Assembly: GCF_964204645.1 (NCBI RefSeq)
Contig: NC_134027.1
Span: 24,354,485-24,418,484 of the forward strand
DNA from: Tubulanus polymorphus
Taxonomy: Eukaryota > Nemertea > Palaeonemertea > Tubulaniformes > Tubulanidae
Length of the DNA: 64,000 nt
Reading direction: 5' to 3'
Every line of letters begins with the position of its first letter. Position 1 is the stretch's first letter. Position numbers and translations under genes: made by a program. Under the pieces are notes generated by a model, which was given only the letters and a program-made list of their open reading frames with translations, was not told the origin of the DNA and made no database searches. Shown in pieces: positions 7,390 to 29,194 of this stretch.

Positions 7390-10300
7390 TCACCAAATAA
7401 AGATCGGTTTTCCGTCGTCATTCGCCAACAAAACTAAACAATCCAACATAATTTTCAAGTCGTTCAATTCGTTTTCTTTCGCGAGTTCTTGCACCATGGC
7501 GTGAAGAGCCGCCGGGTCTTGCAACATCAAATTCGTGGCTTTGTGCCCGAGAGGATAGTTCAACAAGCCGTATTTGTTGACCATGTTCGTAGCGAAATGT
7601 GGATGGAATTCCATGCGGTAACCGCAATGCTTCAGGATATGGAATATGTACTGGTATCGATAAGACATGGCTAGTTTCGATTTGACGTCCACGGTGCCCG
7701 TCGTTTCGTCCGTAGCTTCCGAGTGAATCATCGACGCGATGTTGTTCAACGTGAAACCGTAAAATCGCCGGCGTCGGCGCTCGTCCGTCTGTTCGCGACC
7801 GTTGAATACGTAATTCAAAATTCGCCGATCCAGCTGGAAGCAAATTTCCCCCAAAAGACGAGCGGATTTCTTGTTGGCGGTGTCTTGGTCATCGTCGCCG
7901 CTGGTCGAGCGTTTGGTGTCGGTGATTTTGTCGTCGCAAACGCATTCAGCTAGAAATCGGTGAGAAAATGAATATTTTGGTGGATCTAATCACAGATTTC
8001 GAATTTTGAAATACCCGAGATGTACCAAATAGATACAAGGGAAAAATGCAATAAATATGTGTCTGGACCTAGTTCCACGCTCGATAGAGGTTCTGAAAGT
8101 GTTTAAATTTGAAGACTGGTCTCGAGTCTTTTTATTGACTACATTGAACTTAGATTGTCCTGACACTTTAATGTTGGCAATGAGCGTTTCAATTGATGAT
8201 TTTTGGGCGTTTCGAAAATTCAGGGCACTAAGTAATGGGTTACGTAGATTTTAGTTAAAAATGTTCAACTCCAAAAATAGTGATAAAACATTCGTGTGAT
8301 ATAACACTGGGTCTAGTTCAACTCGGAATTGCGCGTATTTTACCTGATAATGTCGAGTCGCATTTACATCTTTCGATATATTCAGCCAAAGATTTCTCGT
8401 TTTCGATCGATTGGTTCAGCAATTCCATACTGGTCATTCTTTTCGAGCTACGATCATTTCTTGACGCTGAAGAGATCGTAATTTTCAAGTAAAACCCGTT
8501 ATACACTCAGACGTGGAGAATCGATAATCAGATTTAAGCCTATTCGGTGGTCTCCACTGGAAGTCCGAAGTTTCGTGTCTCTTAAGCCTAACGCACATGA
8601 CCCAGGGAAACAGAGAAACATGGAATCAAACACGTTTGATCTCGGAAACGTTGTTTGCTGAAACCTGTTTCTTGTTTCGGACACGGTACAGGGAAACGCT
8701 CGGGTTTATGTCTCCTGTCTCCGCGTTTCCCTGCGTCATGTGTTTTATTTTAACCATGGATAGGTAAATTGATAGGTAAATTTCGATGTTAATCTTTTGA
8801 ATTTGTAAATAGTTTTATCAAAGATATTTAAAATTCACAATACACTGTTAAATCTCCGACATGACCCTTATATTGATTACGGGATTTTGATAATGATTCG
8901 CTTCAAGTTTAAGAACTATTCGGCTCTACCTACCTGGTTCATGTTGGGAGGAGTTGTCGACATATGTCGGGGGCTCGCTGATTTCTGATCGGTTCACCGG
9001 TGGTACCGTGGCAGGGGGCGCTGGGGTCGATGAAGTTATCGGCTGAAGGTCCGACTCGGACGGGATCTGAGCGCGCGTTGACGGTAGCCAATAATCCCCG
9101 TGTCTGGGACGATTCGCGTCGCGGATAAAACTTCCCGAATCACAACTCATCAAATATTCATCGTCTGCGTCGCCTTCGATGGCCGTACTTTTCTGAATAC
9201 AAACGAAAAAGTATTAACCATATGAATTGCCTGCCTTCAAATCTACACCAAATCCGCTACAGCTATGGCGAACTTCGGTCATCGGACTATCTGCTAATAA
9301 CTAAGCCCGGAAATTAGGCAGCCAGAGAAAAATTCATCCCAATCAGTCGCTTGCCGGTTCAGACTGACTGGAAGATTGTTTGGATGAACCGGAACCGAAT
9401 TTACAATTATGTGCTCCGATTTAAAAAAAACATTCTGTTAACTCGACCGCCGATCACACAACTAGGCTGTACTTCGATTTCCGATTTCAAAATCAAACCC
9501 CCTGTTTCGCTCCCGGCAGGTGTGGTGGGTCTGTAAGGGACACTCAATCAAAAAATCAAACGAAATTTACCAACCAAATTAATAAATAACGGGGACAATC
9601 CCTATTTTAAGATCAAAAAATCTAAGCCCGGAAATAACGGACCACGCAACTGAGCACGGTCTCTGTAGTTCGAACAGTTCTATATGACCGACGCTGTGAA
9701 ATGCGTTAATACCGAACTATATGTTTTGCTACGTCGACACCACTAGTCGACTAACCACGAAATCCAAAGTTCGCCAAAATGGTAGAAATAACCATGAATT
9801 ACCCATCGATGAAACACCGTGTTCGGGTTGGAAGATAGTACATGTACGGTATAAAATCCATAATTTATGAAATTGTTTAGTTAAAATAGTTCGATGATTT
9901 CAAATACTTGACTGACTGTACTTTTCAGAGTTAAAAGACAAATCTCACAGTTAACTTCGAAACAGTGTCAAATATGAATTGTGGGTTTGTTCATTAACTT
10001 CAAAATATATATTGATTCCCGTACAACCCCTGCATTACACCGATATGAAACTAGGATTCTTCACGATCTATGCCGGTAGAGCAATTTGCAATAATTTTTC
10101 TTCATCAGTTAAAAGGAATATTGAAAATCTAATCCCCACGAACTCCATGAATCAATTATAAACGTGTATGTTTCACTGTGAACCCGATCGGGACAAGATG
10201 AAACAAACCTCTTTGACTGTAGCCGGATACCACGCGGCTATTGACCCTCGCCTGCCGTCTGCCGAACGAGTAACGATCGGAATCTCTTCATCGTCTGCCT

Positions 10301-11428
10301 CAGATGCGCCTAAATACGCGTTACTGTCGTCAAACTTGACGTGCTTCGATGAATCGACGCCGTTACGATATTTCTGCGGGCTTTTCGACCGCTCCGCCTC
10401 TGACCACCGGTCGCGGCTAGCCGATCTATCGCGCCGTGACCGGTCGTAGCTCGTATCACGTGATCGGTCGTAACTGGAGGCCGATCTGTCACGTGTCCGG
10501 TCGAAGCTCGTCGATCTGTCACGCGACCGGTCGAAGCTCGTCGATCTATCACGTGACCGGTCGTAGCTGGCTGATCTGCCACTCGATTCGCCATCGATGT
10601 TGTCGTAGCTCGTGGAACGGGTATCGTAACCGGGGCTCAGCGAACGGGATCTGCTGGATTTCCCCGTCTCCGGGATGACCGTTTGGTGGAATTTATTCAA
10701 CGCTTTTTCGCCGAGATAATCATCAGAATCTGCGAAAATAAAAACCGGGGACTCGGGATCAGTTGCACAATGGCCTAGATTACAGACCTTTGTTCTAAAA
10801 TCTAAACAACACAACACTATATTCAATAGAATATTCAATAGAAAAATAAAACTCATTCAGCGGGACCCTCCTAGTATCATCTTTCATATTTTCCATATCA
10901 AGCAAATAGAATCACCTAATGTATCGATGATATCACACTGATGATATTTTCTGAACTGTGTCTGAATATTTTACGTGAAAAAACTTTGAACTTTGAACAT
11001 CATGCGGGGATTCGTCGTCGTCCCCTCCAAGACTTTGTAAAAAAAAAAACGTTTCCTGCTGTATTTACTTGAAAAATATAGATATTGAATCAAGGAGCAA
11101 TAAATATCATATTAATCAAATCTGTCTTCATCGCGGAGTCCGAGATAAAAACAAATTCCTGCTCCGTATTTTTACCTTCGGTTCGCCGTCCATTTTCCAA
11201 CCAGGTCAGAATTTCCGAAATGATAGCGGCCGATTTCAGTTCGGAATTCTCGTTGGATAGCCTCAGTTGTTTTCTGATCAGGTAATTCTGCGCTCTCAGC
11301 CATTCGATCTCGTGTTTAATGCGATCGAGCTCGTGGTCCAGGGCGTCCCGCGGGTGGGCCTGAACTCCCGTCGATCTCAGGTCATCGGTAAGCAACGTAT
11401 CGACGCTTTCGATAGAGTTCGGTTCCAT
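7390..11428 (-). CDS. Speriolin-like protein (SPATC1/SPATC1L family) with an RS-repeat region
   Basis: Four exons on the minus strand, 11428-11176, 10729-10209, 9192-8934 and 7949-7390, with consistent phases, give about 530 residues. Speriolins are centrosome-linked proteins best known from male germ cells. Exon 1 holds the N-terminal helix, rich in charged and leucine residues (EIEWLRAQNYLIRKQL, then NENSELKSA), as in the family's coiled coil. The last exon holds the C-terminal speriolin domain at about residues 378-530 (GEICFQLDRRILNYVF, YGFTLNNI, CGYRMEFHPHF, LNYPLG, DGKPIFIW). Between them, exon 2 encodes about ninety residues of SR/RD/FDR repeats, and exon 3 a disordered acidic and proline-rich segment. 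The RS-rich stretch is unusual for the family as I know it. The ATG at 11428 gives the conserved N terminus; no upstream coding exon was seen. The family assignment is strong; the germline role is by analogy. Confidence 0.85.
10425..10620 (-). repeat. Coding ~30-bp minisatellite (RS/RD decapeptide repeat)
   Basis: Within exon 2 of the speriolin-like gene a unit of about 30 bp (plus-strand core CGGTCGAAGCTCGTCGATCT) recurs about five times, encoding variants of DRSTSFDRSR. The unit keeps the reading frame, so copy number can change without frameshift. Confidence 0.8.
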
Positions 11429-11759
11429 TTTTCAAAAAAAGCGGAATCGATAGCCTTAGGCAGGAAAAACGAATCAAACTGTCCTAATTTGGCCTTGAAT
11501 ATCTGCTGGCTTTTGTTTTTCCGCAGCTTACATATCCTTAATTTGTCCCAACGAGAAAAGAAACCAGAAAATGGTTACGTATGAAGTCGTTTCTATGGGT
11601 GATCTTTCAATAGCAACTTGTTGTCAAGGTTCCATTCGATCAATACGCTCGTCAATGGTTACCATAGATATTCTAAATAGAGTCCACCTCGGCGGTAACT
11701 TTTCATTTGCAATTCATTCTATCAGAACTTTGCTCTAAATACAGCATCATATACAGATT

Positions 11760-12240
11760 ACATCGTACTCGTAATCCATGATAAACTGAACACATTCACC
11801 CAGTCCTGTTTGATAGAGCGCCAGGATTACCAACGATCTGTTTGACTTATTGACACCCTAGAGAAGGCAAAGACGACAGATCATTTTCAGGGAGTATCCC
11901 CTGATAGCATTTCAGGTCAAGTATCCCTAAAAATACGTATCGGAATCTCGCATGTTACCAAAATGTTAACCAATATTGAGAGATTTGACCGTCCTTAATT
12001 TCGTCATTTTCTTTCCGCTATGAGGTATTTCAAAACAAACAGGCTTAGTTATAGGATATGAACTGAGCTTCTTGAAATGTTTTAGAAATTCGCAAATGTA
12101 TAACACTATCATATCGAATCGGGTTTTTGACGAATGAATTGCGTTCATTGGCAATAATGTCTTTACTTCTCTGATTGCCATCGCGAACTTTTGTGTTTTA
12201 CAGTTCATCGCAGATTGGTCAAAATATCATCCATAACTCA
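11760..12240. repeat. Diverged remnant of the GPCR-array spacer (left edge)
   Basis: This stretch shares its order of short matches with the spacers at 17620-18130 and 20700-21220 (ACTGAACACATTCACCCAG-like, ACGAATGAATTGC, TTTCGTCATTTTCTTTC) at clearly lower similarity. It marks the left limit of the duplicated array, about 330 bases beyond the speriolin-like start codon. Confidence 0.6.
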
Positions 12241-12827
12241 ATGAAACATGAAGCCTTCAAGTTATGAACACAGGGGCACTGATAACACTGCCGCGTTTCC
12301 GTTAATGAGTTATTGTGCCCTCAGAAATTACTCGACTATATTTAATTGATTTTATGAATAATCGAATACAGGCATCGCTCCTATTTTCAAGCGAGCCTTG
12401 ATTGATGAGAAGAGGCTCTTGCCAATCCAAGTTCGAATCCCATGTATTTTCGTACCAACGTACTGGTTCTTACAACTTTCAAACCTAAAGGTACCTTTTG
12501 TCAAAACCGTTTCTACGTACATGCATCGAATTCCTACGTGAAATCTATTTATCTGAACGCATCCGTGCGGTACCCAAACCTTCACAACGTTCATACCACA
12601 TTATGCGCTGTTGAATTTATTCATTTCTTCGACAGTTATCAAAACAACAAAACCGTCAGCCATTTATGGTGAATTTTTCATACGCAATAAATGTGTGCGA
12701 TTATTTACTCTCGTGGGATTTATTTGAATCAAATAAATTACATAAAACTACTGATGACGGTATAAAAATGCATTGTATTTCTACTCATTCCGGACCCGAT
12801 CCGCCAAATTTGTTTTGTGGTGCAGGA

Positions 12828-13898
12828 CTACAGTTTGCTGTTTGTAGTTCCACGAATCACATTGGTTACAATATCAGCAGCTACTTTTCTGAATTTTTCA
12901 TTTGTTACACAATACACGATAAAATTTACAGATGAATCGATGATAGAAAATCCTAACGCTATCAGGCTCATTGTGTTTACCCTTGGGATGTAACTTAATC
13001 TCATTAAACGGTCGATAAAACCAAAACCTTCGCAAATGATGAACAACAAAACTACTGATAAAACCATCCTTAAAACCCCCATTTCCCTTCTAGACGATTC
13101 ATCGGTTATACCGAGCTCTGTACGTCGAGTAACCCGACGGTAAAATATCGCAGAAATAAGAATTACATTGATGAAAACTAATAAGCTAATTGGGACCATG
13201 ACAGTAAGATACATGAATAGATATAGGTCGGCAATACCAAAACGCCATATTTTCAGATTCAGCCTCCAGAAATACCGGAACTTCCTAACACGCAGAGTTA
13301 TATACGGCCAACTGATGGGACAATTCATGAATTCAAGATGGTGATCAGGCAAGAATTGACCACAATGTCCGCAAAAACTAACTAGTGAAATGAACAACAT
13401 TGCCCTCAATGAAATCAACTTCATTGGTAATGTGCGAGATTTTATTGGAAACAATACGACGATTAACCGCTCTAGACTGAGCAGTACAGTGCACCAGTTA
13501 CGTGTCATCTGAAACATGTAGAAAAACGGCATGGCGACTGAGATGAAAATCCAACCAAAATTCCAGTCATTCATGCGAAACACAATATCCCCCAAAACCG
13601 CATAAATGTACGCAGTTCTCAGCGGATAAAGAATGAATGTAACGATCATAAACAAAAGATCGTTTACGGCAAGAATTCTAATGAGAAAGTAAATATCAGA
13701 TTTAAACTGTTTTAGAACTAACAACGTGAATGCGTTGAATATCATACCCAGCACAGACGCCGGTAGATACCAGCCTAGATACATAAAAACATTGAATTTG
13801 TTAATCCATTGAACAGGAATAGTTTGGAATCTCTGACACAGGTTGAGTTGAGATTTTGTCAATGCGGTTGTTGTGCTAGTAACGTTTTGATCAGACAT
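12828..13898 (-). CDS. Divergent class A GPCR, array copy 1
   Basis: An intronless 356-residue seven-helix receptor. Estimated helices: TM1 39-62 (with GMIFNAF), TM2 73-97 (LAVNDLLF), TM3 115-139 followed by SLERLIVVLFP in place of the DRY region (R144), TM4 163-184, TM5 226-252, TM6 275-297, TM7 308-331 (SSVNFIVYC in the NPxxY position). N5 in NVT is a potential N-glycosylation site. The TM7 motif resembles that of FMRFamide-type peptide receptors, but the ligand cannot be inferred. There is one cysteine in the second extracellular loop (C193) and none at the usual top of TM3; TM6 lacks CWxP. Against copies 2 and 3 the first two thirds are nearly identical, while residues from about 212 on differ much more. 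AATAAA in minus-strand sense at 12724-12719 lies about 100 bases past the stop. Confidence 0.88.
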   Translation of the reverse strand: MSDQNVTSTTTALTKSQLNLCQRFQTIPVQWINKFNVFMYLGWYLPASVLGMIFNAFTLLVLKQFKSDIYFLIRILAVNDLLFMIVTFILYPLRTAYIYAVLGDIVFRMNDWNFGWIFISVAMPFFYMFQMTRNWCTVLLSLERLIVVLFPIKSRTLPMKLISLRAMLFISLVSFCGHCGQFLPDHHLEFMNCPISWPYITLRVRKFRYFWRLNLKIWRFGIADLYLFMYLTVMVPISLLVFINVILISAIFYRRVTRRTELGITDESSRREMGVLRMVLSVVLLFIICEGFGFIDRLMRLSYIPRVNTMSLIALGFSIIDSSVNFIVYCVTNEKFRKVAADIVTNVIRGTTNSKL

Positions 13899-14811
13899 CT
13901 CATGAGCTGGAACCGCAATCTCTACAAAATTACCTTTAATGCGTTTCTATTTCTTAAAACGTTCACGCGTTGTGAATAAAGGATTGAATGGATTTATGAA
14001 ATAAAGAACAGTAACTGAATGCAATTCACGTCGGTCTACTGTAATTAGTGCATCGCGCATACATTGTGTCGTCTTCAACTTCTAAACCGCGTAAAATTCA
14101 TTCATCACAAATTTGACAGAATTTGTGCTCGTGAATGCAGTATATTATGTATATGTATGCGCGAAACACGATAATTTTCGTTTTACCAGATATGAATATG
14201 ACGATTGTTAATATAGACGAAACAACCTGACCATCTGATGACGGCTATTAGAATGTAGCCTTGCGTGTCTGTCCACACGATTCATGGCTCCTCCAGGTTC
14301 AAGGCTATAGGATGATGCCAAATGGTTTATGGCTGGTCCGTAGCTAACCCTGTAGATTCGGATTCAAGGGGTCTATACTCCCAAAAAATGTTGACAAAAT
14401 GTTGAATATTTCATTGAATTTACCGGTATCCTGATTCCGTCTTACGATTCGTGATGAAGATTCATTTTATAATGCCTCGAAAGAGCCTAAGAAAACACTG
14501 AAACCTCAGAATTCAAGATTTTCCACTCTTGTGATGGTTTGATCTATGAGGAATCCAATTTTTCAAGGGTTAAACAAGATTTTTGGTCATGCTTCACAGC
14601 GGAGCCAGCCAGGGGTCCAGACGAGGTTGTGGATCAAGCACTGAGACAGTACTCTGTGGCGGATCCAGGGGTGGTTTAAAGGTCCGACCCCCCTCCTTTA
14701 TCAGAAGAGTTCTTTTGTAAGAAGTTGGACCATTTATCGATTTCTGCCCTCATTACGTCAGTCTCACCTTAGGCCGACTTTCTGAATCAGGGCCGATAAT
14801 AAGACTCTTAA
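13899..14811. repeat. 5' flank of GPCR copy 1, shared with copies 2 and 3
   Basis: About 0.9 kb upstream of the copy 1 start is almost identical to the flanks of copies 2 (16699-17580) and 3 (19780-20660), including the run through TGTTGACAAAATGTTGAATA and a block at about 14655-14700 resembling a hAT-type terminus (GCGGATCCAGGGGTGG). No coding exon was seen. It presumably holds the promoter of the copy. Confidence 0.75.
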
Positions 14812-15627
14812 TGAAGTAATGAATACACACATTTCAATACGAACAGGTCTAGTTCAGATGTTAACTGACCTTCTCAGAATACAAAAATGAATCACAAATA
14901 AATCACAAATCGCAAATATATTACGCTGACATATTAGAATGGTTTTTCTGACGAATGAATTGCTTTTATCGGCAGTGATGTCTTCTGGAACTTGGTTCTA
15001 GAGTTCATCACAGATTTACCAAAACATCATTCATAATTCAATAGCGCTTGTAAACCGTCCAAGTTATTACCACGGGATATTGATAACACTGGTGCGTTCT
15101 CTTTAATGAGTTCTTGTTCCTTAAGAAATTAATTTTATTATTCTAACTTGATTTTATGAATTATCTAATACAGGCATCGCTCTTTCAAGCGATCGTTGAT
15201 TGATGAGAAGAGGCTCTCGCCAATCCAAGTTCGAATTCATGTATCTTCGCACCAAAACGGTTCTTACAACTTTCAAACCCAAAGGTACCTTTTGACAAGA
15301 CCTTACCTAAACGGGCATGCATCGAATTCATGCGAAATCTTGCCTCTATTCATCTTAATACAACGGTGCGGTACCCAAACCTTCACAACGGTACCACATT
15401 GTGCGCTGTTGAGTATATTTATTTATTTCCTGGACAGTTATTAAAGCAATGAAACCGTCAGCTATCTATGGTGAATTTTTCATGCGCAATAAATGTGTGT
15501 GATTTTTTACTCTCTTGGGATTAATTTGAATCAAATACATTACATAAAACTGATGACGGTAGAAAACATGTATTGTATTTCTACAAATTCAGGACCCGAT
15601 CCGCCATATTTGTTTTGTGGTGCAGGA

Positions 15628-16698
15628 CTACAGTTTGCTGTCTGTAGTTCCGCGATTCCCATTGGTTACAATATCAGCAGCTACTTTTCTGAATTTTTCA
15701 TTTGTTACACAATACACGATAAAATTTACTGACGAATCGACGATAGAAAATCCCAACGCTATAAGTGTCATGCCTTCAATCTTGCGGATATAGTTCAAAC
15801 CCATTAAACGATCAATAAAACCAAAACCTTCGCAAATAATAAACAGCGAAACTACTGATAAAACCATCCTTAAAACCCTCATTTCCCTTCTAGACGATTC
15901 ATCAGTTACACCGAGCTCTGTACGTCGAGTAACCCGACGGTAAAATGTCACCGAAATAAGAATAACATTGATTACAACTAAAAAGGAAATTGGGATCATG
16001 ACAGTAAGATACATGAATAGATATTTTTCGGAAATAACGAAACGCCATTCGTGCAGTTTCAACTTCCAGAAATACCGGAACTTCCTAACACGCAGAGTTA
16101 TATACGGCCAACTGATGGGACAATTCATGAATTCAAGATGGTGATCAGGCAAGAATTGACCACAATGTCCGCAAAAACTAACTAGTGAAATGAACAACAT
16201 TGCCGTCAATGAAATCAACTTCATTGGTAATGTGCGAGATTTTATTGGAAACAATACGACGATTAACCGCTCTAGACTGAGCAGTACAGTGCACCAGTTA
16301 CGTGTCATCTGAAACATGTAGAAAAACGGCATGGCGACTGAGATGAAAATCCAACCAAAATTCCAGTCATTCATGCGAAACACAATATCCCCCAAAACCG
16401 CATAAATGTACGCAGTTCTAAGCGGATAAAGAATGAATGTAACGATCATAAACAAAAGATCGTTTACGGCAAGAATTCTAATGAGAAAGTAAATATCAGA
16501 TTTAAACTGTTTTAGAACTAACAACGTGAATGCGTTGAATATTATACCCAGCACAGACGCCGGTAGATACCAGCCTAGATACATAAAAACATTGAATTTG
16601 TTAATCCATTGAACAGGAAAAGTTTGGAATCTCTGACACAGGTTGAGTTGAGATTTTGTCAATGCGGTTGTTGTGCTAGTAACGTTTTGATCAGACAT
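15628..16698 (-). CDS. Divergent class A GPCR, array copy 2 (hybrid)
   Basis: A 356-residue intronless receptor with the same helices and motifs as copy 1. Residues 1 to about 211 match copy 1 with only a few differences (I27F, M52I, R165T). From about residue 212 (KLKLHEWRFVISEKY) to the end it instead matches copy 4, as does its 3' flank. It is thus a mosaic of copies 1 and 4. It differs from copy 3 by one residue (I195 against V195 in NCPxSWP). The frame is intact and probably functional; the same start methionine (MSDQN) is used in copies 1 to 4. Confidence 0.88.
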   Translation of the reverse strand: MSDQNVTSTTTALTKSQLNLCQRFQTFPVQWINKFNVFMYLGWYLPASVLGIIFNAFTLLVLKQFKSDIYFLIRILAVNDLLFMIVTFILYPLRTAYIYAVLGDIVFRMNDWNFGWIFISVAMPFFYMFQMTRNWCTVLLSLERLIVVLFPIKSRTLPMKLISLTAMLFISLVSFCGHCGQFLPDHHLEFMNCPISWPYITLRVRKFRYFWKLKLHEWRFVISEKYLFMYLTVMIPISFLVVINVILISVTFYRRVTRRTELGVTDESSRREMRVLRMVLSVVSLFIICEGFGFIDRLMGLNYIRKIEGMTLIALGFSIVDSSVNFIVYCVTNEKFRKVAADIVTNGNRGTTDSKL

Positions 16699-18708
16699 CT
16701 CATGAGCTGGAACCGCAATCTCTACAAAATTACCTTTAATGCGTTTCTATTTCTTAAAACGTTCACGCGTTGTGAATATAGGATTGAATGGATTTATGAA
16801 ATAAAGAACAGTAACTGAATGCAATTCACGTCGGTCTACTGTAATTAGTGCATCGCGCATACATTGTGTCGTCTTCAACGAATCAAATAAACCGCGTAAA
16901 ATTCATTCATCACAAATTTGACAGAATTTGTGCACGTGAATGCAGTATATTATGTATATGTATGCGCGAAACACGATAATTTTCGTTTTACCAGATATGA
17001 ATATGACGATTGTTAATATAGACGAAACAACCTGACCATCTGATGACGGCTATTAGAATGTAGCCTTGCGTGTCTGTCCACACGATTCATGGCTCCTCCA
17101 GGTTCAAGGCTATAGGATGATGCCAAATGGTTTATGGCTGGTCCGTAGCTAACCCTGTAGATTCGGATTCAAGGGGTCTATACTCCCAAAAAATGTTGAC
17201 AAAATGTTGAATATTTCATTGAATTTACCGGTATCCTGATTCCGTCTTACGATTCGTGATGAAGATTCATTTTATAATGCCTCGAAAGAGCCTAAGAAAA
17301 CACTTAAACCTCAGAATTCAAGATTTTCCACTCTTGTGATGGTTTGATCTATGAGGAATCCAATTTTTCAAGGGTTAAACAAGATTTTTGGTCATGCTTC
17401 ACAGCGGAGCCAGCCAGGGGTCCAGACGAGGTTGTGGATCAAGCACTGAGACAGTACTCTGTGGCGGATCCAGGGGTGGTTTAAAGGTCCGACCCCCCTC
17501 CTTTATCAGAAGAGTTCTTTTGTAAGAAGTTGGACCATTTATCGATTTCTGCCCTCATTACGTCAGTCTCAACTTAGGCCGACTTTCTGAAGGGCCGATA
17601 ATAAGACTCTTAGCGACTCTGAACTGAACCCGTTCACCCAGTCTTGATGAATAGCGCTCCATCCAGGAATACCGACTATCTGTTTAACGATGACACCCAT
17701 ACGGAGGGCAAAGACGACGAACCATTTTCAGGTAATATCTCCTGATATCATTTCTGGTCTAACAATTATCCCCTCAAAATACTTATTCCTCTTATAGCAG
17801 TAATAAATCTCGTATGATACCAAAATGTTTACCGATGTTGAAAGGTTTGACCGTCGTTAATTTCGTTAAACATAATTTCATTTTCTTTCGGCTGAAGTAA
17901 TGAATACACACATTTCAATACTAACAGGTCTAGTTCAGATGTTAACTGACCTTCTCAGAATACAAAAATGAATCACAAATAAATCACAAATCGCAAATAT
18001 ATTACGCTGACATATTAGAATGGTTTTTCTGACGAATGAATTGCTTTTATCGGCAGTGATGTCTTCTGGAACTTGGTTCTAGAGTTCATCACAGATTTAC
18101 CAAAACATCATTCATAATTCAATAGCGCTTGTAAACCGTCCAAGTTATTACCACGGGATATTGATAACACTGGCGCGTTCTCTTTAATGAGTTCTTGTTC
18201 CTTAAGAAATTAATTTTATTATTCTAACTTGATTTTATGAATTATCTAATACAGGCATCGCTCTTTCAAGCGATCGTTGATTGATGAGAAGAGGCTCTCG
18301 CCAATCCAAGTTCGAATTCATGTATCTTCGCACCAAAACGGTTCTTACAACTTTCAAACCCAAAGGTACCTTTTGACAAGACCTTACCTAAACGGGCATG
18401 CATCGAATTCATGCGAAATCTTGCCTCTATTCATCTTAATACAACGGTGCGGTACCCAAACCTTCACAACGGTACCACATTGTGCGCTGTTGAGTATATT
18501 TATTTATTTCCTGGACAGTTATTAAAGCAATGAAACCGTCAGCTATCTATGGTGAATTTTTCATGCGCAATAAATGTGTGTGATTTTTTACTCTCTTGGG
18601 ATTAATTTGAATCAAATACATTACATAAAACTGATGACGGTAGAAAACATGTATTGTATTTCTACAAATTCAGGACCCGATCCGCCATATTTGTTTTGTG
18701 GTGCAGGA

Positions 18709-19779
18709 CTACAGTTTGCTGTCTGTAGTTCCGCGATTCCCATTGGTTACAATATCAGCAGCTACTTTTCTGAATTTTTCATTTGTTACACAATACACGA
18801 TAAAATTTACTGACGAATCGACGATAGAAAATCCCAACGCTATAAGTGTCATGCCTTCAATCTTGCGGATATAGTTCAAACCCATTAAACGATCAATAAA
18901 ACCAAAACCTTCGCAAATAATAAACAGCGAAACTACTGATAAAACCATCCTTAAAACCCTCATTTCCCTTCTAGACGATTCATCAGTTACACCGAGCTCT
19001 GTACGTCGAGTAACCCGACGGTAAAATGTCACCGAAATAAGAATAACATTGATTACAACTAAAAAGGAAATTGGGATCATGACAGTAAGATACATGAATA
19101 GATATTTTTCGGAAATAACGAAACGCCATTCGTGCAGTTTCAACTTCCAGAAATACCGGAACTTCCTAACACGCAGAGTTATATACGGCCAACTGACGGG
19201 ACAATTCATGAATTCAAGATGGTGATCAGGCAAGAATTGACCACAATGTCCGCAAAAACTAACTAGTGAAATGAACAACATTGCCGTCAATGAAATCAAC
19301 TTCATTGGTAATGTGCGAGATTTTATTGGAAACAATACGACGATTAACCGCTCTAGACTGAGCAGTACAGTGCACCAGTTACGTGTCATCTGAAACATGT
19401 AGAAAAACGGCATGGCGACTGAGATGAAAATCCAACCAAAATTCCAGTCATTCATGCGAAACACAATATCCCCCAAAACCGCATAAATGTACGCAGTTCT
19501 AAGCGGATAAAGAATGAATGTAACGATCATAAACAAAAGATCGTTTACGGCAAGAATTCTAATGAGAAAGTAAATATCAGATTTAAACTGTTTTAGAACT
19601 AACAACGTGAATGCGTTGAATATTATACCCAGCACAGACGCCGGTAGATACCAGCCTAGATACATAAAAACATTGAATTTGTTAATCCATTGAACAGGAA
19701 AAGTTTGGAATCTCTGACACAGGTTGAGTTGAGATTTTGTCAATGCGGTTGTTGTGCTAGTAACGTTTTGATCAGACAT
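18709..19779 (-). CDS. Divergent class A GPCR, array copy 3 (twin of copy 2)
   Basis: A 356-residue intronless receptor identical to copy 2 except for V195, the residue also found in copy 4. Helices, ERL motif (R144) and VNFIVYC motif are unchanged. Both flanks are shared with copy 2. It is either a very young duplicate or an artefact of assembling two haplotypes in tandem. Confidence 0.87.
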   Translation of the reverse strand: MSDQNVTSTTTALTKSQLNLCQRFQTFPVQWINKFNVFMYLGWYLPASVLGIIFNAFTLLVLKQFKSDIYFLIRILAVNDLLFMIVTFILYPLRTAYIYAVLGDIVFRMNDWNFGWIFISVAMPFFYMFQMTRNWCTVLLSLERLIVVLFPIKSRTLPMKLISLTAMLFISLVSFCGHCGQFLPDHHLEFMNCPVSWPYITLRVRKFRYFWKLKLHEWRFVISEKYLFMYLTVMIPISFLVVINVILISVTFYRRVTRRTELGVTDESSRREMRVLRMVLSVVSLFIICEGFGFIDRLMGLNYIRKIEGMTLIALGFSIVDSSVNFIVYCVTNEKFRKVAADIVTNGNRGTTDSKL

Positions 19780-21801
19780 CTCATGAGCTGGAACCGCAAT
19801 CTCTACAAAATTACCTTTAATGCGTTTCTATTTCTTAAAACGTTCACGCGTTGTGAATATAGGATTGAATGGATTTATGAAATAAAGAACAGTAACTGAA
19901 TGCAATTCACGTCGGTCTACTGTAATTAGTGCATCGCGCATACATTGTGTCGTCTTCAACGAATCAAATAAACCGCGTAAAATTCATTCATCACAAATTT
20001 GACAGAATTTGTGCACGTGAATGCAGTATATTATGTATATGTATGCGCGAAACACGATAATTTTCGTTTTACCAGATATGAATATGACGATTGTTAATAT
20101 AGACGAAACAACCTGACCATCTGATGACGGCTATTAGAATGTAGCCTTGCGTGTCTGTCCACACGATTCATGGCTCCTCCAGGTTCAAGGCTATAGGATG
20201 ATGCCAAATGGTTTATGGCTGGTCCGTAGCTAACCCTGTAGATTCGGATTCAAGGGGTCTATACTCCCAAAAAATGTTGACAAAATGTTGAATATTTCAT
20301 TGAATTTACCGGTATCCTGATTCCGTCTTACGATTCGTGATGAAGATTCATTTTATAATGCCTCGAAAGAGCCTAAGAAAACACTTAAACCTCAGAATTC
20401 AAGATTTTCCACTCTTGTGATGGTTTGATCTATGAGGAATCCAATTTTTCAAGGGTTAAACAAGATTTTTGGTCATGCTTCACAGCGGAGCCAGCCAGGG
20501 GTCCAGACGAGGTTGTGGATCAAGCACTGAGACAGTACTCTGTGGCGGATCCAGGGGTGGTTTAAAGGTCCGACCCCCCTCCTTTATCAGAAGAGTTCTT
20601 TTGTAAGAAGTTGGACCATTTATCGATTTCTGTCCTCATTACGTCAGTCTCACCTTAGGCCGACTTTCTGAATGAGGGCCGATAATAAGACTCTTAGCGA
20701 CTCTGAACTGAACCCGTTCACCCAGTCTTGATGAATAGCGCTCCATCCAGGAATACCGACTATCTGTTTAACGATGACACCCATACGGAGGGCAAAGACG
20801 ACGAACCATTTTCAGGTAATATCTCCTGATATCATTTCTGGTCTAACAATTATCCCCTCAAAATACTTATTCCTCTTATAGCAGTAATAAATCTCGCATG
20901 TTACCAAAATGTTTACCGATGTTGAAAGGTTTGACCGTCGTTAATTTCGTTAAACATAATTTCATTTTCTTTCGGCTGAAGTAATGAATACACACATTTC
21001 AATACTAACAGGTCTAGTTCAGATGTTAACTGACCTTCTCAGAATACAAAAATGAATCACAAATAAATCATAAATCGCAAATATATTACGCTGACATATT
21101 AGAATGGTTTTTCTGACGAATGAATTGCTTTTATCGGCAGTGATGTCTTCTGGAACTTGGTTCTAGAGTTCATCACAGATTTACCAAAACATCATTCATA
21201 ATTCAACAGCGCTTGTAAACCGTCCAAGTTATTACCACGGGATATTGATAACACTGGCGCGTTTCGTTAATGAGTTCTTGTTCCTTAAGAAATTGATTTT
21301 ATCATTCTAACTTGATTTTATGAATTATCTAATACAATACAGGCATCGCTCTTTCAAGCGATCCTTGATTGATGAGAAGAGGCTCTCGCCAATCCAAGTT
21401 CGAATTCATGTATCTTCGTACCAAAACGGTTCTTACAACTTTCAAACCCAAAGGTACCTTTTGACAAGACCTTACCTAAACGGGCATGCATCGAATTCAT
21501 GCGAAATCTTGCCTCTATTTATCTTAATACAACGGTGCGGTACCGTCCCAAACCTTCACAACGGTACCACATTGTGCGCTGTTGAGTATACTTATTTATT
21601 TCCTGGACAGTTATTAAAGCAATGAAACCGTCAGCTATCTATGGTGAATTTTTCATGCGCAATAAGTGTGTGATTTTTTACTCTCTTGGGATTAATTTGA
21701 ATCAAATATATTACATAAAACTACTGATGACGGTACAAAACATGTATTGTATTTCTACAAATTCAGGACCCGATCCGCCATATTTGTTTTGTGGTGCAGG
21801 A

Positions 21802-23668
21802 CTACAGTTTGCTGTCTGTAGTTCCGCGATTCCCATTGGTTACAATATCAGCAGCTACTTTTCTGAATTTTTCATTTGTTACACAATACACGATGAAATT
21901 TACTGACGAATCGATGATAGAAAATCCCAACGCTATAAGTGTCATGCCTTCAAACTTGTGGATATATTTCAAACCCATTAAACGATCAATAAAACCAAAA
22001 CCTTCGCAAATAATAAACAGCGAAACTACTGATAAAACCCACAGGGGTTTGGCGATGGGCTTGGATTTTATTTCCGGGTCGTTGATAATCTCGCGAGAAT
22101 GGCGCTAAATATGAACTGCGAATAAATTCAAAATATCACGGAAATACCTTGTGTTTATATTGTTTATTTATCCGCTATAAAGTTCTGATAAACAATTGGT
22201 CGTTAAGAATCATTATCAGACGGTCGTCATGCTTTACTATATAAAATCACAAGGGATGAAACGCCAGGCCTCCGCTGTACTTAAATTTTCAGCCAGAAAG
22301 TTGGGACAGTCACGTGACATTCTGATGACGTCATCGCATTTAAAACTTCAACACGAAAAGTTAACATATTCACAGACCGATATCAATTGTCAGATTATGA
22401 TTCATATGAAATAAATAACTTATAAGGAATAAATTATGACGAAATATATAATTCATAGTAAAAAAATGCATTTGAATGTAAGTTATTCTCAAATATTTTT
22501 CGTATCATAGTTTCCATCTTATATGCTTCAGGTTCGCGTTCATTCAAATAAGAAGCGTTAAGTCACGTGACTGTCCCAACTTTCTGGCTGGCACAACTAT
22601 GAAGGCGTTTCATCCCTTGTTCTTTTATATAGTAGCGTGACGACCGTCTGATAATGATTCTTAACGACCAATTGTTTATCGAAACTTTATAGCGGATAAA
22701 TAAACAATATAAACACAAGGTATTTCCGTGATATTTTGAATTTATTCGCAATTCATATTTAGCGCTATTCTCACGAGATTATCAACAACCCGGAAATAAA
22801 ATCCAAGCCCATCGCCAAACCCCTGTGATAAAACCATTCTTAAAACCCTCATTTCCATTCTAGACGATTCTTCAGTTACACCAAGCTCTGAACGTCGAGT
22901 AACCCGACGGTAAAATGTCACCGAAATAAGAATAACATTGATTACAACTAAAAAGGCAATTGGGATCATGACAGTAAGATACATGAATAGATATTTTTCG
23001 GAAATAACGAAACGCCATTCGTGCAGTTTCAACTTCCAGAAATACCGGAACTTCCTAACACGCAGAGTTATATACGGCCAACTGACGGGACAATTCATGA
23101 ATTCAAGATGGTGATCAGGCAAGAATTGACCACTATGTCCGCAAAAACTAACCAGTGAAATGAACAACATTGCCCTCAATGAAATCAACTTCATTGGTAA
23201 TGTGCGAGATTTTATCGGAAACAATACGACGATTAACCGCTCTAGACTGAGCAGTACAGTGCACCAGTTACGTGTCATCTGAAACATGTAGAAAAACGGC
23301 AAGGCGACTGAGATGAAAATCCAACCGAAATTCCAGTCGTTCCAGCGAAACACAATATCTCCTAAAACGGCGTAAACGTACGTAGTTCTCAACGGATACA
23401 AAATGAATGTAGCGATCATAAACAGAAGATCGTTCGAAGCGAGAATTTTGATGAGAAAATAAATATCAGATTTAAACTGTTTCAGAACTAACAGCGTGAA
23501 TGCGTTGAATATTATACCAAGCACAGACGCCGGTAAATACCAGCCTAAATACATAAAGACATAGTATTTGTTCACCCACATAACAGGGTGAGTTTGAATT
23601 CTCTGACACAGGTTGAGTTGAGATGTTGTCAATGCGGTAGTTGTGCTGGTAATGTTTTGGTCAGACAT
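21802..23668 (-). pseudogene. Class A GPCR, array copy 4, split by a MITE in TM6
   Basis: The N-terminal 281 residues are encoded at 23668-22828 and the C-terminal part at 22039-21802, matching copies 2 and 3 to the same stop. A 788-bp element sits between them, in the TM6 codons after RMVLS, with the target ATAAAACC duplicated on both sides. Read through, the frame takes 27 unrelated residues and stops inside the element, losing TM6 and TM7. I saw no other disabling change, so the insertion may be recent and could be polymorphic. The 3' half and 3' flank are close to copies 2 and 3; the 5' half and flank are diverged. Confidence 0.88.
22040..22827. mobile_element. 788-bp foldback MITE with ~280-bp inverted arms, 8-bp TSD
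   Basis: The ends are CACAGGGGTTTGGCGATGGG and its complement. The arms run about 22040-22318 and 22560-22827 and pair almost perfectly over most of their length, around a central unique stretch of about 240 bp. The 8-bp duplication ATAAAACC lies at 22032-22039 and 22828-22835; the empty site is visible in copies 2 and 3. No transposase frame is present, so it is non-autonomous. An 8-bp TSD with CA...TG ends suits the hAT or P superfamily; I cannot decide between them. Confidence 0.93.
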
Positions 23669-24554
23669 CTCATGAGGAGCTGGAACCGCAATCTCTGCAA
23701 AATTCATTGCCTAATGCGCTTCTATTTGGTGTTACTAATGCTAGTCATGATAATGAATTGAATAGATTTATTAAATAATCTATATCAAAGAACTGTAGCT
23801 GAATGAAATTTTAACATGCTGGAATCAATTATCGCGCGCCCTGTTGCTTTGAATCAACGAATCAATTTAACCGCGTAAACTCCATTCATCACAAATTTGT
23901 CAGAATTTCCAAACGCACGCGAAACACGATAATTTGTGTTTTAGAGGATTTACGTACTAGTATAGAGGAAACCTGTCCACCTGATGATGGCTGTATTAAA
24001 ATGTGGCAGTGTCCGTTCACCCGGATCATGGGTTCTTAGGTTAAAGGCCATTGTTGTTTCAAATGGTTGTTTCACCTAAACTTGTAGGTGGTCGGATTCA
24101 AGGCATCTACTCCCCCAAAATGTTGATGAAATATTGAATATTCATGGTCAATTAACCGGTATTCGAATGTTGGAGATTATGTTATGAAATGACCTCGGAA
24201 GACACAGAAATTTTAGAATTTCAAAATTTCCACTTCTACATATACGGTTTTGATTTGTGAGGGATCCAGTAATTTTTTCCCAAGGGTTAAAGCAACGTGT
24301 TTGGGTCATGATTTACAGCGGGGTCAGTTATCAAGCTTGGGGTCAACGCGTTAGAACGCGAGGATGCGGTACCTAGCACAATGGAGTAATCAGTCTGATT
24401 ACTCCAAGCTAGCATAGAGACAGTACACACTCCAGCGGCAGAGATCCAGTGGTGGTTAACCCTCCATTTAACTGAAAGAGTTTCTTTTTGGAAATAAAAG
24501 AAGTTGAACATTTCCAGATTTGTGAAGTTAAAGTATATACTCTTACGTACGCCA

Positions 24555-24765
24555 GCGTTTTGCCTCGTGATTTCAAACCACTGTAACAGAATGTCGTAAT
24601 ACGAATAACTTAAGAAATCAAGCTGGCAAACGATGTACTGTTTCCGAAGCGTAGCCGAGATTGAGATGCGGCTATGCTATCAGTAACATCAAAATCGGAC
24701 TGATGTTGTAAGCTTTGACAATGAAATACAAGACTTTCTTGCTATCGAATCGTAGATTTTGACCG
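24555..24765. repeat. Spacer block duplicated on both sides of GPCR copy 5
   Basis: The block running from GCCTCGTGATTTCAAACC through GAGATTGAGATGCG to GACTTTCT recurs in diverged form at 26445-26680. The two occurrences bracket copy 5, so copy 5 was once part of a tandem unit of about 1.9 kb. Confidence 0.55.
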
Positions 24766-24913
24766 CCATTTCTTTTAGATTCAAAAACGAAGAACGAACA
24801 TGCCTCTTTCGCCTAACGGAAGCGGATACATAACAATAATGCATTCTTACTAATTCGGGACTCGATCCGTCTTAATTTCGGCGATACTAGTTTGCTGTTT
24901 GTAGTTCAACGCT

Positions 24914-25960
24914 TCAACGAATTATGCTGCGGAAAATACCAATGGCTACTTTTCTGAATTTGCCATTTGTCGCGCAATACACGATAAAGTTTGCTGACGA
25001 ATCGACGATAGAAAATCCTAACGCTATAAGTCTCATACCCCAAAACCTGTGGATATATTTCAAATCCATTAAACGATGGATGAAACCAAGATTTTCACAA
25101 ATAATAAACAGCAAAACTACAAATAAAACCATCCTCAGAACTCTCATCTCCCTTCGAGACGATTCGTCCGTTACACCGAGCTCTGAACGTCGAGTAACCC
25201 GACGGAAAAATGTCACTGAAATGAGAATTAGATTGATGAAAACTAAAAGGCAAATCGGGACCATAACAGTGAGATACATGAATAAATATTGTTCGGAAAT
25301 AACGTAACGCCATTTGTCCAGTTTCCACTTCCAGAAATACCGAAACCTCTCACCTAGCAGTGTTACATATGGCCAATTGTCGGGACATTTCATGAACCCA
25401 AGATGATCTGCAGGTAAGAATAGACCAAAATGTCCACAAAAACTAACCAGTGAAATGAACAACATTGCCCTTAATGAAATCATTTTAGTTTGTAATGTGC
25501 GAGATCTGATTGGAAATAATACGACGATTAACCGCTCTAGACTGAGCAGTACAGTGCACCAGTTACGCGTCATCTGAAACATGTAGAAAAACGGCATGCC
25601 GACTGAGATGAAAATCCAACCAAAATTCCATTCGTTCCGGCGAAACAAAATATCTCCCAAAACCGCGTAGATGTACGCAGATCTCAACGGATACAGAATG
25701 AATGTAGCGATCATAAACAAAAGATCGTTTAAAGCGAGAACTTTGATCAGAAAATAATTATCAGATTTAAATCGTTTCAGAACTAACAACGTGAATGCGT
25801 TGAATAGCATACCCAGTATAGACGCCGGTAGAAACCAGCCTAAATATAACATCACATTATATTTGTTACGCCATTTAACAGGAAGAGTTTGAAATCTCTG
25901 ACACAGGTTGAGAGATGTTGTCAATGCGGGAGCTGCACTGGTAATGTTGTTATCAAACAT
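24914..25960 (-). CDS. Divergent class A GPCR, array copy 5 (oldest paralogue)
   Basis: A 348-residue intronless receptor starting MFDNNITS; an in-frame ATG 14 codons upstream (26002) is possible, but the chosen start aligns with the other copies. It keeps NIT glycosylation near the N terminus, LALNDLLF in TM2, SLERLIVVLFP after TM3, one extracellular-loop cysteine (MKCPDNWP) and NFIVYC in TM7. It differs from copies 1-4 at many sites along its whole length and lacks the C-terminal tail GTTxSKL. It is an older member at the right side of the array and looks intact. Confidence 0.87.
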   Translation of the reverse strand: MFDNNITSAAPALTTSLNLCQRFQTLPVKWRNKYNVMLYLGWFLPASILGMLFNAFTLLVLKRFKSDNYFLIKVLALNDLLFMIATFILYPLRSAYIYAVLGDILFRRNEWNFGWIFISVGMPFFYMFQMTRNWCTVLLSLERLIVVLFPIRSRTLQTKMISLRAMLFISLVSFCGHFGLFLPADHLGFMKCPDNWPYVTLLGERFRYFWKWKLDKWRYVISEQYLFMYLTVMVPICLLVFINLILISVTFFRRVTRRSELGVTDESSRREMRVLRMVLFVVLLFIICENLGFIHRLMDLKYIHRFWGMRLIALGFSIVDSSANFIVYCATNGKFRKVAIGIFRSIIR

Positions 25961-26439
25961 CTCGTATATACGATCTGTAAGCCACAATCTCCGTAAATTC
26001 AATTATCTAATGTTCCTCGGTATTTGGTTAGACTGTCAGTGTGAATCGAGAAGTTTATACAATAATTTACTCGACAGAATTGTATCCGAATAAACAATTG
26101 GTTTTCAAGAATCCACGGTTAGGCTAATGGGAATTACTCGCCACTTTCGCGATGCAGTCGGTAATGTGGATGGCATAGTCTGTCTCGGCCAAGTTTGTCG
26201 CGGTAAATCAAAGCTCTTCTATCATAACGTGCATACGTTCTACGGAATTCTGACGTATCCGAGATAATGGCAGAGTATCTGAAATCACAATATATGAAGA
26301 GAAAAGAAGACGAGAATTTAGCAAACTTCCAGCTGCGTTTGGTCTTTAGTTGAAGGTGCGAATTTAAATATCGCTAAGACTAGTCGCGCTAAGATTTTAC
26401 AACGCTGATGGCGTGATAGGCTCACGCATACGCAATCTC

Positions 26440-27900: not shown

Positions 27901-27999
27901 CTGGTCAAAAGAAACTATCCCCTCAAAATACTTATTTCTCTCATAAAAATTTCGCTGGGTACAGAGCTTTTCGATATAAAGAGGTTTGGCAGTCTCGTT

Positions 28000-29190
28000 G
28001 ATTTCGTTAACTTTCTACAGGGAGGTAATTAATACACGTTACAATACAAATAATCTAAATCGAATTCAAATTCAGATCGGAATGTTTTGAGATTAAGAAC
28101 ATATAATGTATAACTGTCAATATAGCTCTGTTAGCCTAGTTCGGATAAACAAACAAACAAAATCTTGGGAATGTTTTTTGGACGAAATTACCACATTCAT
28201 TGACAATACTGTTAATTATAATTTTCTTTGTTACCATTGGATTTAGTTTCACAATATTGTGGATTTATCAAACCCCACGATCAAATTTACAATATTTTGT
28301 TTTAAGATTTTGGCAATGAAATGATTGTAAGTCTTAGAGTCAAACTTAACGATTTCTGTAGCTAGGTCCTGCATAGTAGTTCCAGTTCCAGTTGAAATCA
28401 ATTCGCTTTTGATTAGTTAACGCTAGATTCAGATTCTAACTCGGAACTACGGAACTCACGAGTCCTAGATAGGTTAGATCAGTAGTCGCCAGGCCTCAAT
28501 AAACTCTCACGGAGGTATGCGAATTTCATGGCATTCGGGGCAGGGTCGTTATCACGATGATTTAGAATAAGCAGATTTATAATATATTGCCAGGCGGGAC
28601 ACGCGACAATCCGAGGCAATCGACTGTATTAGGGGGCCATTAATCCACAACATTGTTTAACTAGATCCAAATCCCGTTTTCAAACTATCAATACAGAACA
28701 ATATATCTATTCGCGTTTTAACCTTTGTCCCGTAAGCAGAAGACCCACAAAATCCTTACGAATAATCATAATTACATTATCTATGAATATCATACGTTGC
28801 TAATTTACAAACAGATATTTTTCAGAAGTCATCAAGTCAGGGAGAAAATAAAACAAAAATTCAAGGCGAAAAGCCAATTTTTGATCGCAGTATATAAGCG
28901 ATGTCGTTTACACATCGGTATTTCATATCCACCGCAAAAGCAATAAGTTCAAAACTGATGAAAAAGATGTTCACAAATTTACCGAACAATGTGTAATTCA
29001 AGTTGATGAATACGTGGGGAAAGCTAAGGAATTGTGGTGTGACCTCGTTTAAATGAACCAGGGCTCCTCCGCTATCATGGCCTTGGCAGAACACAAACGG
29101 GAAACGCAAAGACAAAGATTAAATGTACAGCTGCAACCTCTTCGTTGGACCTTTGCTCAAGCAGGACTTACATTAACTGCCACTTTAAGC
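28000..29190. other. Intergenic sequence, no recognised gene
   Basis: AT-rich sequence without a supported gene. A minus-strand open stretch at 29115-28861 has a weak likeness to TLC-domain membrane proteins but no second exon or clear splice pattern. Confidence 0.4.
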
Positions 29191-29194
29191 AAGT

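Follow-up and report, generated by a model that had tools for sequence, protein, structure and literature searches.

Copies 2 and 3 of a tandem receptor array in the nemertean Tubulanus polymorphus resemble one neighbour in their first part and another in their last, which raises the question of whether they are recombinants, of which parents, and by what kind of event. The array lies in a stretch of 64,000 nucleotides (NC_134027.1, 24,354,485 to 24,418,484), here called the window. A preliminary description proposed that both copies join the front of copy 1 to the back of copy 4, and our analysis bears this out: at 208 of the first 213 informative sites copy 2 has the base of copy 1, and at 140 of the last 150 that of copy 4.

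The receptor array and its family

Five receptor units lie in the window, all on the minus strand (Table 1); gene 5 served as an outgroup in comparisons of this array. The family has 106 further matches elsewhere in the genome, of which 26 were not fetched and 5 were fetched and left out of the alignment, which holds 75 paralogues. Against Pfam 7tm_1 (cut-off 30.5 bits) gene 5 scores 31.8, genes 1 and 2 stay below at 24.4 and 26.3, and the 5' frame of gene 4 gives no match. Gene 5, the sole member searched against solved structures, has weak matches there, the best being somatostatin receptor 3 (E 0.00037). A structure model made from five window proteins was too poor to judge a seven-helix fold (mean pLDDT 36.2), and helix and loop positions were read from motifs and a variability profile. 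N55, D80, E143-R144-L145, P236 and the N-x3-Y of TM7, which we take to be class A GPCR motifs, occur in 73-75 of the 75 paralogues. In this family Cys21 and Cys193 occur in all 75 paralogues, whereas in most class A receptors it is a cysteine of TM3 that pairs with the second extracellular loop (ECL2). Across the family both ECL2 and ECL3 are hypervariable. Within positions 10000-30000 no RNA family reached its gathering score, and a scan for bacterial promoters in the 5' flank found nothing, such a model having no bearing on an animal gene.

Table 1. Coordinates within the window of the receptor genes, repeat units, crossover intervals and insert
Feature	Position	Strand	Remarks
Gene 1 (copy 1, parent A)	12828..13898	-	single-exon 7TM receptor frame, open, 356 aa
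Gene 2 (copy 2, hybrid)	15628..16698	-	5' part A type, 3' part B type; open, 356 aa
Gene 3 (copy 3, second hybrid copy)	18709..19779	-	protein as gene 2 except residue 195 (I/V)
Gene 4 (copy 4, parent B), 5' part	22828..23668	-	frame enters transposon, stop at 22742
Gene 4, severed 3' part	21802..22039	-	last ~78 codons and stop
Gene 5	24914..25960	-	open, 348 aa; more distant array member
Crossover interval, gene 2	16065..16163	-	residues 179-212; 16065-16115 with residue 195 at face value
Crossover interval, gene 3	19146..19244	-	residues 179-212
Repeat unit X1	13346..16145	-	from the 5' part of gene 1 through the spacer to the 3' part of gene 2
Repeat unit X2	16146..19226	-	itself mosaic: left part X3-like, right part X1-like
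Repeat unit X3	19227..23115	-	from the 5' part of gene 3 through the spacer to the 3' part of gene 4, transposon included
Second crossover interval, spacer of genes 2/3	17923..17986	.	14842-14905 in X1, plus 3081
Gap point in X1	14810..14812	.	~281 bp absent here, present in X2 (17612-17893) and X3
Non-autonomous MITE-like transposon in gene 4	22040..22827	.	788 bp, inverted repeats
Terminal inverted repeats of gene-4 insert	22040-22265 and 22604-22827		95% alike
8-bp target duplication ATAAAACC	22032-22039 and 22828-22835		flanks gene-4 transposon

A switch of parentage in copies 2 and 3

Copies 1 and 4 differ at 369 sites; copy 2 agrees with neither at 6, and the 363 at which it equals one of them were taken as informative. 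The maximum chi-square for a switch along these sites is 303.7, and none of 10,000 permutations exceeded 23.4. The flanks switch with their gene halves, the 5' flank being of A type and the 3' flank of B type: copy 2 has the base of copy 1 at 152 of 156 difference sites upstream of the reading frame and at 55 of 57 within the 5' part of the frame, and the base of copy 4 at 54 of 65 within the 3' part and at 86 of 91 in the 3' flank. Wrong-way sites number 5 to the left of the switch and 10 to its right, five of them in residues 260-277. Third positions alone reproduce the switch, and the sequence motifs cited earlier as telling the copies apart were found as stated. The match to copy 4 through the stop and 3' flank holds for the hybrids, with the qualification that copy 4 itself is interrupted by a transposon.

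Counts of differences along the alignment change at the same place. Between copies 1 and 2 there are 0-3 per 100 alignment columns from the 5' flank to window position ~13345, and 5-24 below it. Between copies 2 and 4 the 5' flank has 17-27 per 65-90 aligned sites and the first third of the gene 9-16 per counting interval; there follow 2-3 in the 200 bp before ~13345, a stretch alike in all copies, and 1-7 per interval below it. Since copies 1 and 4 are nearly alike across residues ~118-185 (just 2 differences per 100 bp), that part of the gene is little informative.

The breakpoint lies between residues 179 and 212, so that of the single switch near residue 211 originally proposed the singleness stands and the position widens to this interval, which in gene 2 corresponds to copy-1 sites 13264, 13316 and 13364, plus 2800. 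On the motif reading of the loops the switch would fall within ECL2, in line with the earlier placing of the crossover near the end of that loop. The one informative site inside the interval is residue 195, where copy 2 is of copy-1 type and copy 3 of copy-4 type; because of this difference the two hybrids may have different exact junctions, or the site may have mutated or been converted. We make no claim of a recombination hot spot at ECL2, as junctions there are easily noticed in any case, this highly variable block lying just after a conserved one. Positive selection in ECL2 as a cause was also considered and set aside: over residues 212-226 genes 1 and 2 are separated by 11 replacement changes and 2 silent ones, and the excess of replacement is not significant (Fisher p=0.39).

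Silent divergence, computed separately for codons 1-179 and 212-356, identifies the parents. Genes 1 and 4 are evenly diverged (dS 0.292 and 0.279), whereas gene 2 jumps against each of them, from 0.009 to 0.261 with gene 1 and from 0.291 to 0.031 with gene 4; among these three pairs only 1-4 is even, so copies 1 and 4 are the parents and copies 2 and 3 the hybrids. Such evenness is not general across pairs, because dS to gene 5 is uneven (0.301/0.521 for gene 1, 0.276/0.432 for gene 4). Shared derived bases likewise swap sides: on the left copies 1+2 have 21 in common and 2+4 have 0, on the right 2+4 have 15 and 1+2 have 1. Together with the chi-square maximum, these values agree with the single breakpoint and exchanged nearest neighbours that had been predicted.

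One tree without recombination, in which the 3' half of gene 1 evolved fast under selection on the loops, draws on the hypervariability of ECL2 and ECL3 and on two features of the right-hand part. There the AU test does not reject the grouping 1+2+3 (p=0.258), and 30 of the 54 sites at which copies 2 and 4 agree against copy 1 are, by outgroup majority, changes private to copy 1, which are uninformative on grouping because private changes cannot group copies. The preliminary description had named the same relationships on both sides as the outcome contrary to recombination; the left-hand AU test rejects 2+3+4 (p=0.00038), while the right-hand one leaves 1+2+3 standing. We give such a single tree next to no credence, since the jump is seen at silent sites too and in the non-coding 3' flank (8-22 differences per interval of 80-100 sites), and has its mirror image on the 5' side of copy 4.

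Probable unequal crossover and its alternatives

The joins were, we infer, made by unequal crossover, and we put the probability at about 0.88 that a first exchange between A and B gave the array A - hybrid - B and that a second, in the spacers, doubled the hybrid. Two adjacent receptor genes about 10% diverged, A (today's gene 1) and B (today's gene 4), would have mispaired and exchanged within the ECL2-coding stretch; after some 1-2% more divergence an unequal crossover between spacers would have duplicated the whole hybrid as genes 2 and 3. The same history would include the loss of ~281 bp from the first spacer and the MITE-like insertion in gene 4, at no fixed place in the order. For genes on the minus strand, a crossover of the duplication type must leave the middle gene with the 3' half of B and the 5' half of A together with A's 5' flank, and this is the arrangement observed. 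The order 1 - 2 - 3 - 4, with the hybrids between the parents and their halves in the order that the strand demands, is consistent with one unequal crossover.

The repeat units, whose X1 edges were chosen inside or close to the crossover interval, are spaced at 2800, 3081 and 3093 bp, and their likeness to the outer genes stops at the same gene point in copies 1 and 4. X2 is itself a mosaic. Up to position 14841 X1 has 12 private variants and X3 has 1, from 14906 on X1 has 2 and X3 has 22, and this shift across the second interval is significant (Fisher p=5.9e-7). A second crossover that doubles the hybrid does not figure in the preliminary description. A spacer piece of ~410 bp was considered as a transposon and rejected: a genome search, of a kind that passes over very common words, gave 7 matches, all in the window array.

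Genes 2 and 3 are almost identical, a setting in which assemblers err, and false hybrids might be stitched from alleles or collapsed copies. Yet each unit carries private marks (the deletion in X1, the transposon in X3), private bases lie in orderly blocks (14 in X1, 23 in X3), the hybrid is present twice with matching flanks, and the contig measures 27.8 Mb; we regard an assembly artefact as very improbable.

Gene conversion would reverse the history, a hybrid-type array coming first and other paralogues then overwriting gene 1 at its 3' end and gene 4 at its 5' end. Patches that apparently arose in this way occur in the family (in gene L007 of a second array and at ECL2 in gene L048 of a third), but here two separate tracts would be required, ending in the same residue window and running out through both flanks, neither of which returns to the first parent as far as the alignment reaches. 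Among the 75 aligned paralogues, the closest relatives of gene 1 in its 3' half and of gene 4 in its 5' half still lie in the window array, and the even silent divergence of genes 1 and 4 also argues against overwriting. Conversion is consequently disfavoured relative to crossover and, though less improbable than an artefact, unlikely.

Under the crossover reading the hybrids, probably driven by A's promoter, would work as receptors that take the N terminus, TM1-4 and the beginning of ECL2 from A and TM5-7 and ECL3 from B, and would so have a new ligand range. The earlier suggestion of a receptor with a new pairing of halves holds for the sequence, with its two runs of parental sites, and may hold for a working receptor. 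If the hybrids do answer ligands unlike those of both parents, the array would show how a large receptor family gains new specificities in single steps.

Comparable arrays and the insert in copy 4

The mechanism is ordinary, being already known from opsin and odorant-receptor arrays. Unequal meiotic recombination between primate L/M (red-green) opsins yields L/M hybrids with altered spectral tuning (PMC3213168); there too, receptor genes stand side by side and hybrids come from unequal recombination. Unlike the single-exon genes of the window, however, L/M opsin genes have introns, and their hybrids are polymorphic within species with measured tuning, whereas the window hybrid has been doubled again and is known from sequence. 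For vertebrate odorant and vomeronasal receptors, published studies attribute tandem clusters to unequal crossover and mosaics to conversion and recombination (PMC1995454), propose gene conversion for a mouse V1R pair (PMC2644715), and report that silent-site tests in strepsirrhine V1Rs found recombination in three pairwise comparisons only, so that it is not universal (PMC3914689). Those receptors belong to another family; in the window the junctions and their order can be read from one array. It is unusually readable in that both parents, the hybrid, its duplication and one broken parent are all in place, so that a single assembly still records much of the sequence in which they arose.

Across the genome, mosaic counts were based on a triple test in place of a pairwise two-rate test. 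On all positions 4 of 11 arrays reach the floor (p=0.001 with 1000 shuffles; up to 114 uncorrected tests per set) and on third positions 3 of 11, mosaics at third positions being found in 2 of the 10 other arrays tested; the fourth floor array (C3:25.016 Mb) depends on gene L081, whose 3' end aligns badly. The pairwise test put 24 of 57 tandem pairs above all 400 simulations, an upper bound because its null ignores differences in selection and three pairs include L081. In the second array L007 has 34 successive L008-type informative sites (23645579-23645730) before returning to L009/L010 type, and in the third L048 has its divergent patch. Junctions or patches lie at ECL2 in the window array and that at C3:24.55 Mb, and over TM6-ECL3-TM7 in that at C3:23.65 Mb. 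We speculate, tentatively and with more doubt than belief, that the family diversifies by repeated swaps of the N terminus and proximal ECL2, perhaps tied together by a putative Cys21-Cys193 pair, against distal ECL2, TM5-7 and ECL3; new specificities would then arise largely by shuffling rather than point mutation.

In copy 4 the transposon cuts off the last ~78 codons and the stop, a break absent from the preliminary description. Within this array a copy-4-type C-terminal half is unbroken in genes 2 and 3 only, and the hybrid preserves that half of the broken gene with the other parent's 5' flank ahead of it. The insert is MITE-like in its terminal inverted repeats, fixed-length target duplication and many copies: its end repeat has 43 genome matches, its own included (the two ends of an element may each count), and 8-bp duplications flank both this insert and 3 of 3 other elements whose sequence was extracted for comparison.

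The receptor array and its interrupted fourth gene

Five receptor genes, each of a single exon and every one on the minus strand, occupy 12.8-26.0 kb of the window, on a contig of 27.8 Mb in a genome of 267.8 Mb. This resembles, as a resemblance only, the tandem layout and single exons described for many chemoreceptor families (PMC11526382). In a Pfam scan gene 5 lies above the cut-off for rhodopsin-family receptors (31.8 vs 30.5 bits), genes 1 and 2 lie under it, and the 5' frame of gene 4 gave no match. A protein search of the genome with gene 2 returned at least 111 matches, some of them fragments, with five in this array; of the 106 that lie beyond the window, 80 were fetched and 75 were aligned, five short ones being left out. 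Receptor motifs are conserved across these 75 paralogues.

Features of the receptor array and related loci (window scale unless a contig or another scale is named; C3 is the contig of the second and third arrays)
Feature	Position	Strand	Remark
Gene 1	12828-13898	-	open frame
Gene 2	15628-16698	-	open frame
Gene 3	18709-19779	-	open frame
Gene 4, severed 3' part	21802-22039	-	
Insert in gene 4	22040-22827		788 bp
Gene 4, 5' part	22828-23668	-	
Gene 5	24914-25960	-	open frame
Low-divergence stretch	13445-13544		codons ~118-151; genes 1, 4 and 5 with only 2-5 differences per 100 bp
Gene 4 stretch	22838-22891		residues 260-277; five bases at which gene 4 departs from genes 1 and 2; near transposon insertion point
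Spacer piece, ~410 bp	17557-17962; 20638-21046; 27477-27883		
Relic of spacer piece	11784-12004		
GNAT acetyltransferase frame	6164-6898	+	left of array
Speriolin C-terminal domain	7390-7989	-	left of array
Minisatellite, 57-bp unit	145-1322		20.7 units
Minisatellite, 39-bp unit	2031-2320; 30461-31145		two arrays 28 kb apart; open repetitive frames
Minisatellite, 24-bp unit	58849-59280		18.8 units; open repetitive frames
Mosaic arrays, third-position test	window array; C3:23.645-23.659 Mb; C3:24.548-24.563 Mb		
Second array (L087-L089)	C3:23641501-23664500		four receptor genes, ~4.55-kb units
Patch in paralogue L007	23645579-23645730 (L010 scale)		
Duplicated fragment of paralogue L008	23660586-23662166		tail and 3' flank, ~1.6 kb
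Third array (L093-L094)	C3:24547001-24566000		with paralogue L048

The insert in gene 4 ends in inverted repeats of ~226 bp, its 8-bp target duplication is ATAAAACC, and the receptor frame enters the insert to stop at 22742. It is a MITE-like transposon. A genome search with the end repeat gave at least 43 hits, that of the insert itself among them (40 of 582 candidates scored); 40 of these 43 are at 97-100%, which suggests recent activity. The three other complete elements excised all carry 8-bp duplications of their own. Because the insert breaks gene 4, only genes 2 and 3 of this array still have an intact C-terminal half of the gene 4 type.

The switch between parental types

When the receptor units were aligned together with their flanks and compared window by window, genes 1 and 2 showed at most 3 differences per window from the 5' flank, which is common to genes 1-3, to ~13345, and 5-24 thereafter; genes 2 and 4 followed the reverse trend, unlike before this point and alike after it. 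At the 369 sites that separate gene 1 from gene 4, gene 2 agrees with gene 1 upstream of the reading frame (152/156) and in the 5' part of the frame (55/57), then with gene 4 in the 3' part (54/65) and in the 3' flank (86/91). With six sites omitted at which gene 2 is unlike both, the best single cut gives agreement with gene 1 at 208 of 213 sites and then with gene 4 at 140 of 150 (chi-square 303.7; maximum among 10,000 shuffles 23.4), which upholds the change of likeness that the preliminary description had proposed for genes 2 and 3.

The switch is seen again when third codon positions are used alone, and there it falls between codons 172 and 214. Codon 179 is the last gene 1-like site before it that both hybrids share and codon 212 the first shared gene 4-like site, so the breakpoint earlier put near residue 211 falls within this interval, though only as its right-hand limit. 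By motif reading the switch sits in the second extracellular loop (ECL2), near the invariant cysteine 193. Codon 195, the sole informative site between 179 and 212, has the gene 1 base in gene 2 and the gene 4 base in gene 3; given this difference, the two genes may have one common junction with a later change at codon 195, or conversion of that site. Past the switch gene 2 shows a few scattered gene 1 bases, five of them within residues 260-277, where gene 4 may be the changed copy.

Which gene is the hybrid is settled best by silent divergence. Between genes 1 and 4 dS is 0.292 in codons 1-179 and 0.279 in codons 212-356; the corresponding values are 0.009 and 0.261 for genes 1 and 2, and 0.291 and 0.031 for genes 2 and 4. 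Since only the first of these pairs is evenly diverged, gene 1 and gene 4 represent the parents. Gene 5, the more distant member, may have a recombination history of its own, its dS being uneven between the 5' and 3' parts (0.301 and 0.521 against gene 1, 0.276 and 0.432 against gene 4). The low divergence around codons 118-151 may reflect silent-site constraint or conversion; family-wide, fourfold-site divergence is 0.21 in codons 121-140 vs 0.48-0.56 in codons 161-240, and other conserved blocks are equally low (0.18-0.27).

When gene 5 and the 75 paralogues serve as outgroup, genes 1 and 2 share 21 derived bases on the left and genes 2 and 4 none, while on the right genes 2 and 4 share 15 and genes 1 and 2 one. 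When gene 5 and 20 paralogues were put to a likelihood test, a 2+3+4 group was rejected for the left part (AU p=0.00038); for the right part 2+3+4 was favoured by 4.6 log units, with 1+2+3 left unrejected (AU p=0.258). The right-hand result is the weakest point of the hybrid case. Of the 54 right-hand sites at which gene 2 equals gene 4 against gene 1, 30 are, by outgroup majority, private changes of gene 1 and hence uninformative on the grouping.

Crossover, conversion and the doubling of the hybrid

A conversion tract is expected to end, with the first parent then returning, but neither flank returns to the first parent as far as the flanks align. The repeat units cease to resemble gene 1 and gene 4 at one and the same point in the gene, and this common end point fits duplication by unequal crossover, which requires it. 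The middle gene has its 3' half from the right-hand parent and its 5' half from the left-hand parent, as the strand demands. An unequal crossover between gene 1-type and gene 4-type copies very probably gave this hybrid. It is very unlikely that conversion from paralogues outside the array instead made the 3' half of gene 1 and the 5' half of gene 4: the nearest relatives of both halves among the 75 aligned paralogues are still array members, which gives no hint of import.

The finished hybrid would then have been doubled whole by another unequal crossover, this time in the spacer. In an alignment of the three successive repeat units X1, X2 and X3 (positions on the X1 scale), X1 has 12 private variants up to 14841, three of them adjacent bases that may be one event, and X2 and X3 have one each; from 14906, X1 has 2 and X3 has 22. 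X2 is accordingly X3-like on the left and X1-like on the right (Fisher p=5.9e-7, X1 vs X3 classes), a mosaic that we read as the mark of this second crossover. The near-identity of genes 2 and 3, spacers too, would follow because the hybrid was copied entire. X1 is without ~281 bp that X2 and X3 carry. In a genome search the ~410-bp spacer piece had matches in this array only (7 of them). The copy adjoining gene 5 shows 91-92% likeness to the rest, in otherwise unalignable spacer; in two copies a GT splice-donor-like site follows a short plus-strand frame, and the third is frameshifted.

Receptor function, precedents and other arrays

The blocks that vary among the 75 paralogues are the N terminus, ECL2, a segment at residues ~299-309 and the C-terminal tail. 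Cys21 and Cys193 occur in all 75, and a disulphide between them would join the N terminus to ECL2. In gene 2 both lie on the gene 1 side of the junction; for gene 3 this hinges on residue 195. The hybrids probably reach the cell surface as receptors that combine outer loops in a new way, and would be driven by the promoter of gene 1.

The array is a well-preserved new instance of a hybrid-gene mechanism already known elsewhere. Earlier reports describe hybrid opsins arising from unequal recombination (PMC3213168), attribute tandem odorant-receptor clusters to unequal crossover and their mosaics to conversion and recombination (PMC1995454), and find such recombination rare in one V1R family of the lemur group (PMC3914689). 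An incomplete search of titles and abstract openings, made without the species name, found no publication on this array.

A third-position mosaic test of 11 arrays gave 3 at p<=0.001, the floor of the test, and 8 without a mosaic. The patches in the paralogues L007 and L048, of the other two mosaic arrays, look like conversion rather than crossover, and selection on hypervariable loops could imitate part of the pattern. In L007 a run of 34 successive informative sites is of the L008 type, after which the gene is again of the L009/L010 type; the run corresponds to codons ~273-324 of gene 2, across TM6 and ECL3 and into TM7. At ECL2, L048 differs by 23 per 100 bp from its neighbour L041 and by 21 from L038, these two being 6 per 100 from L042; the other windows of these units mostly show 0-6, with some at 10-18, chiefly in the 3' flank.
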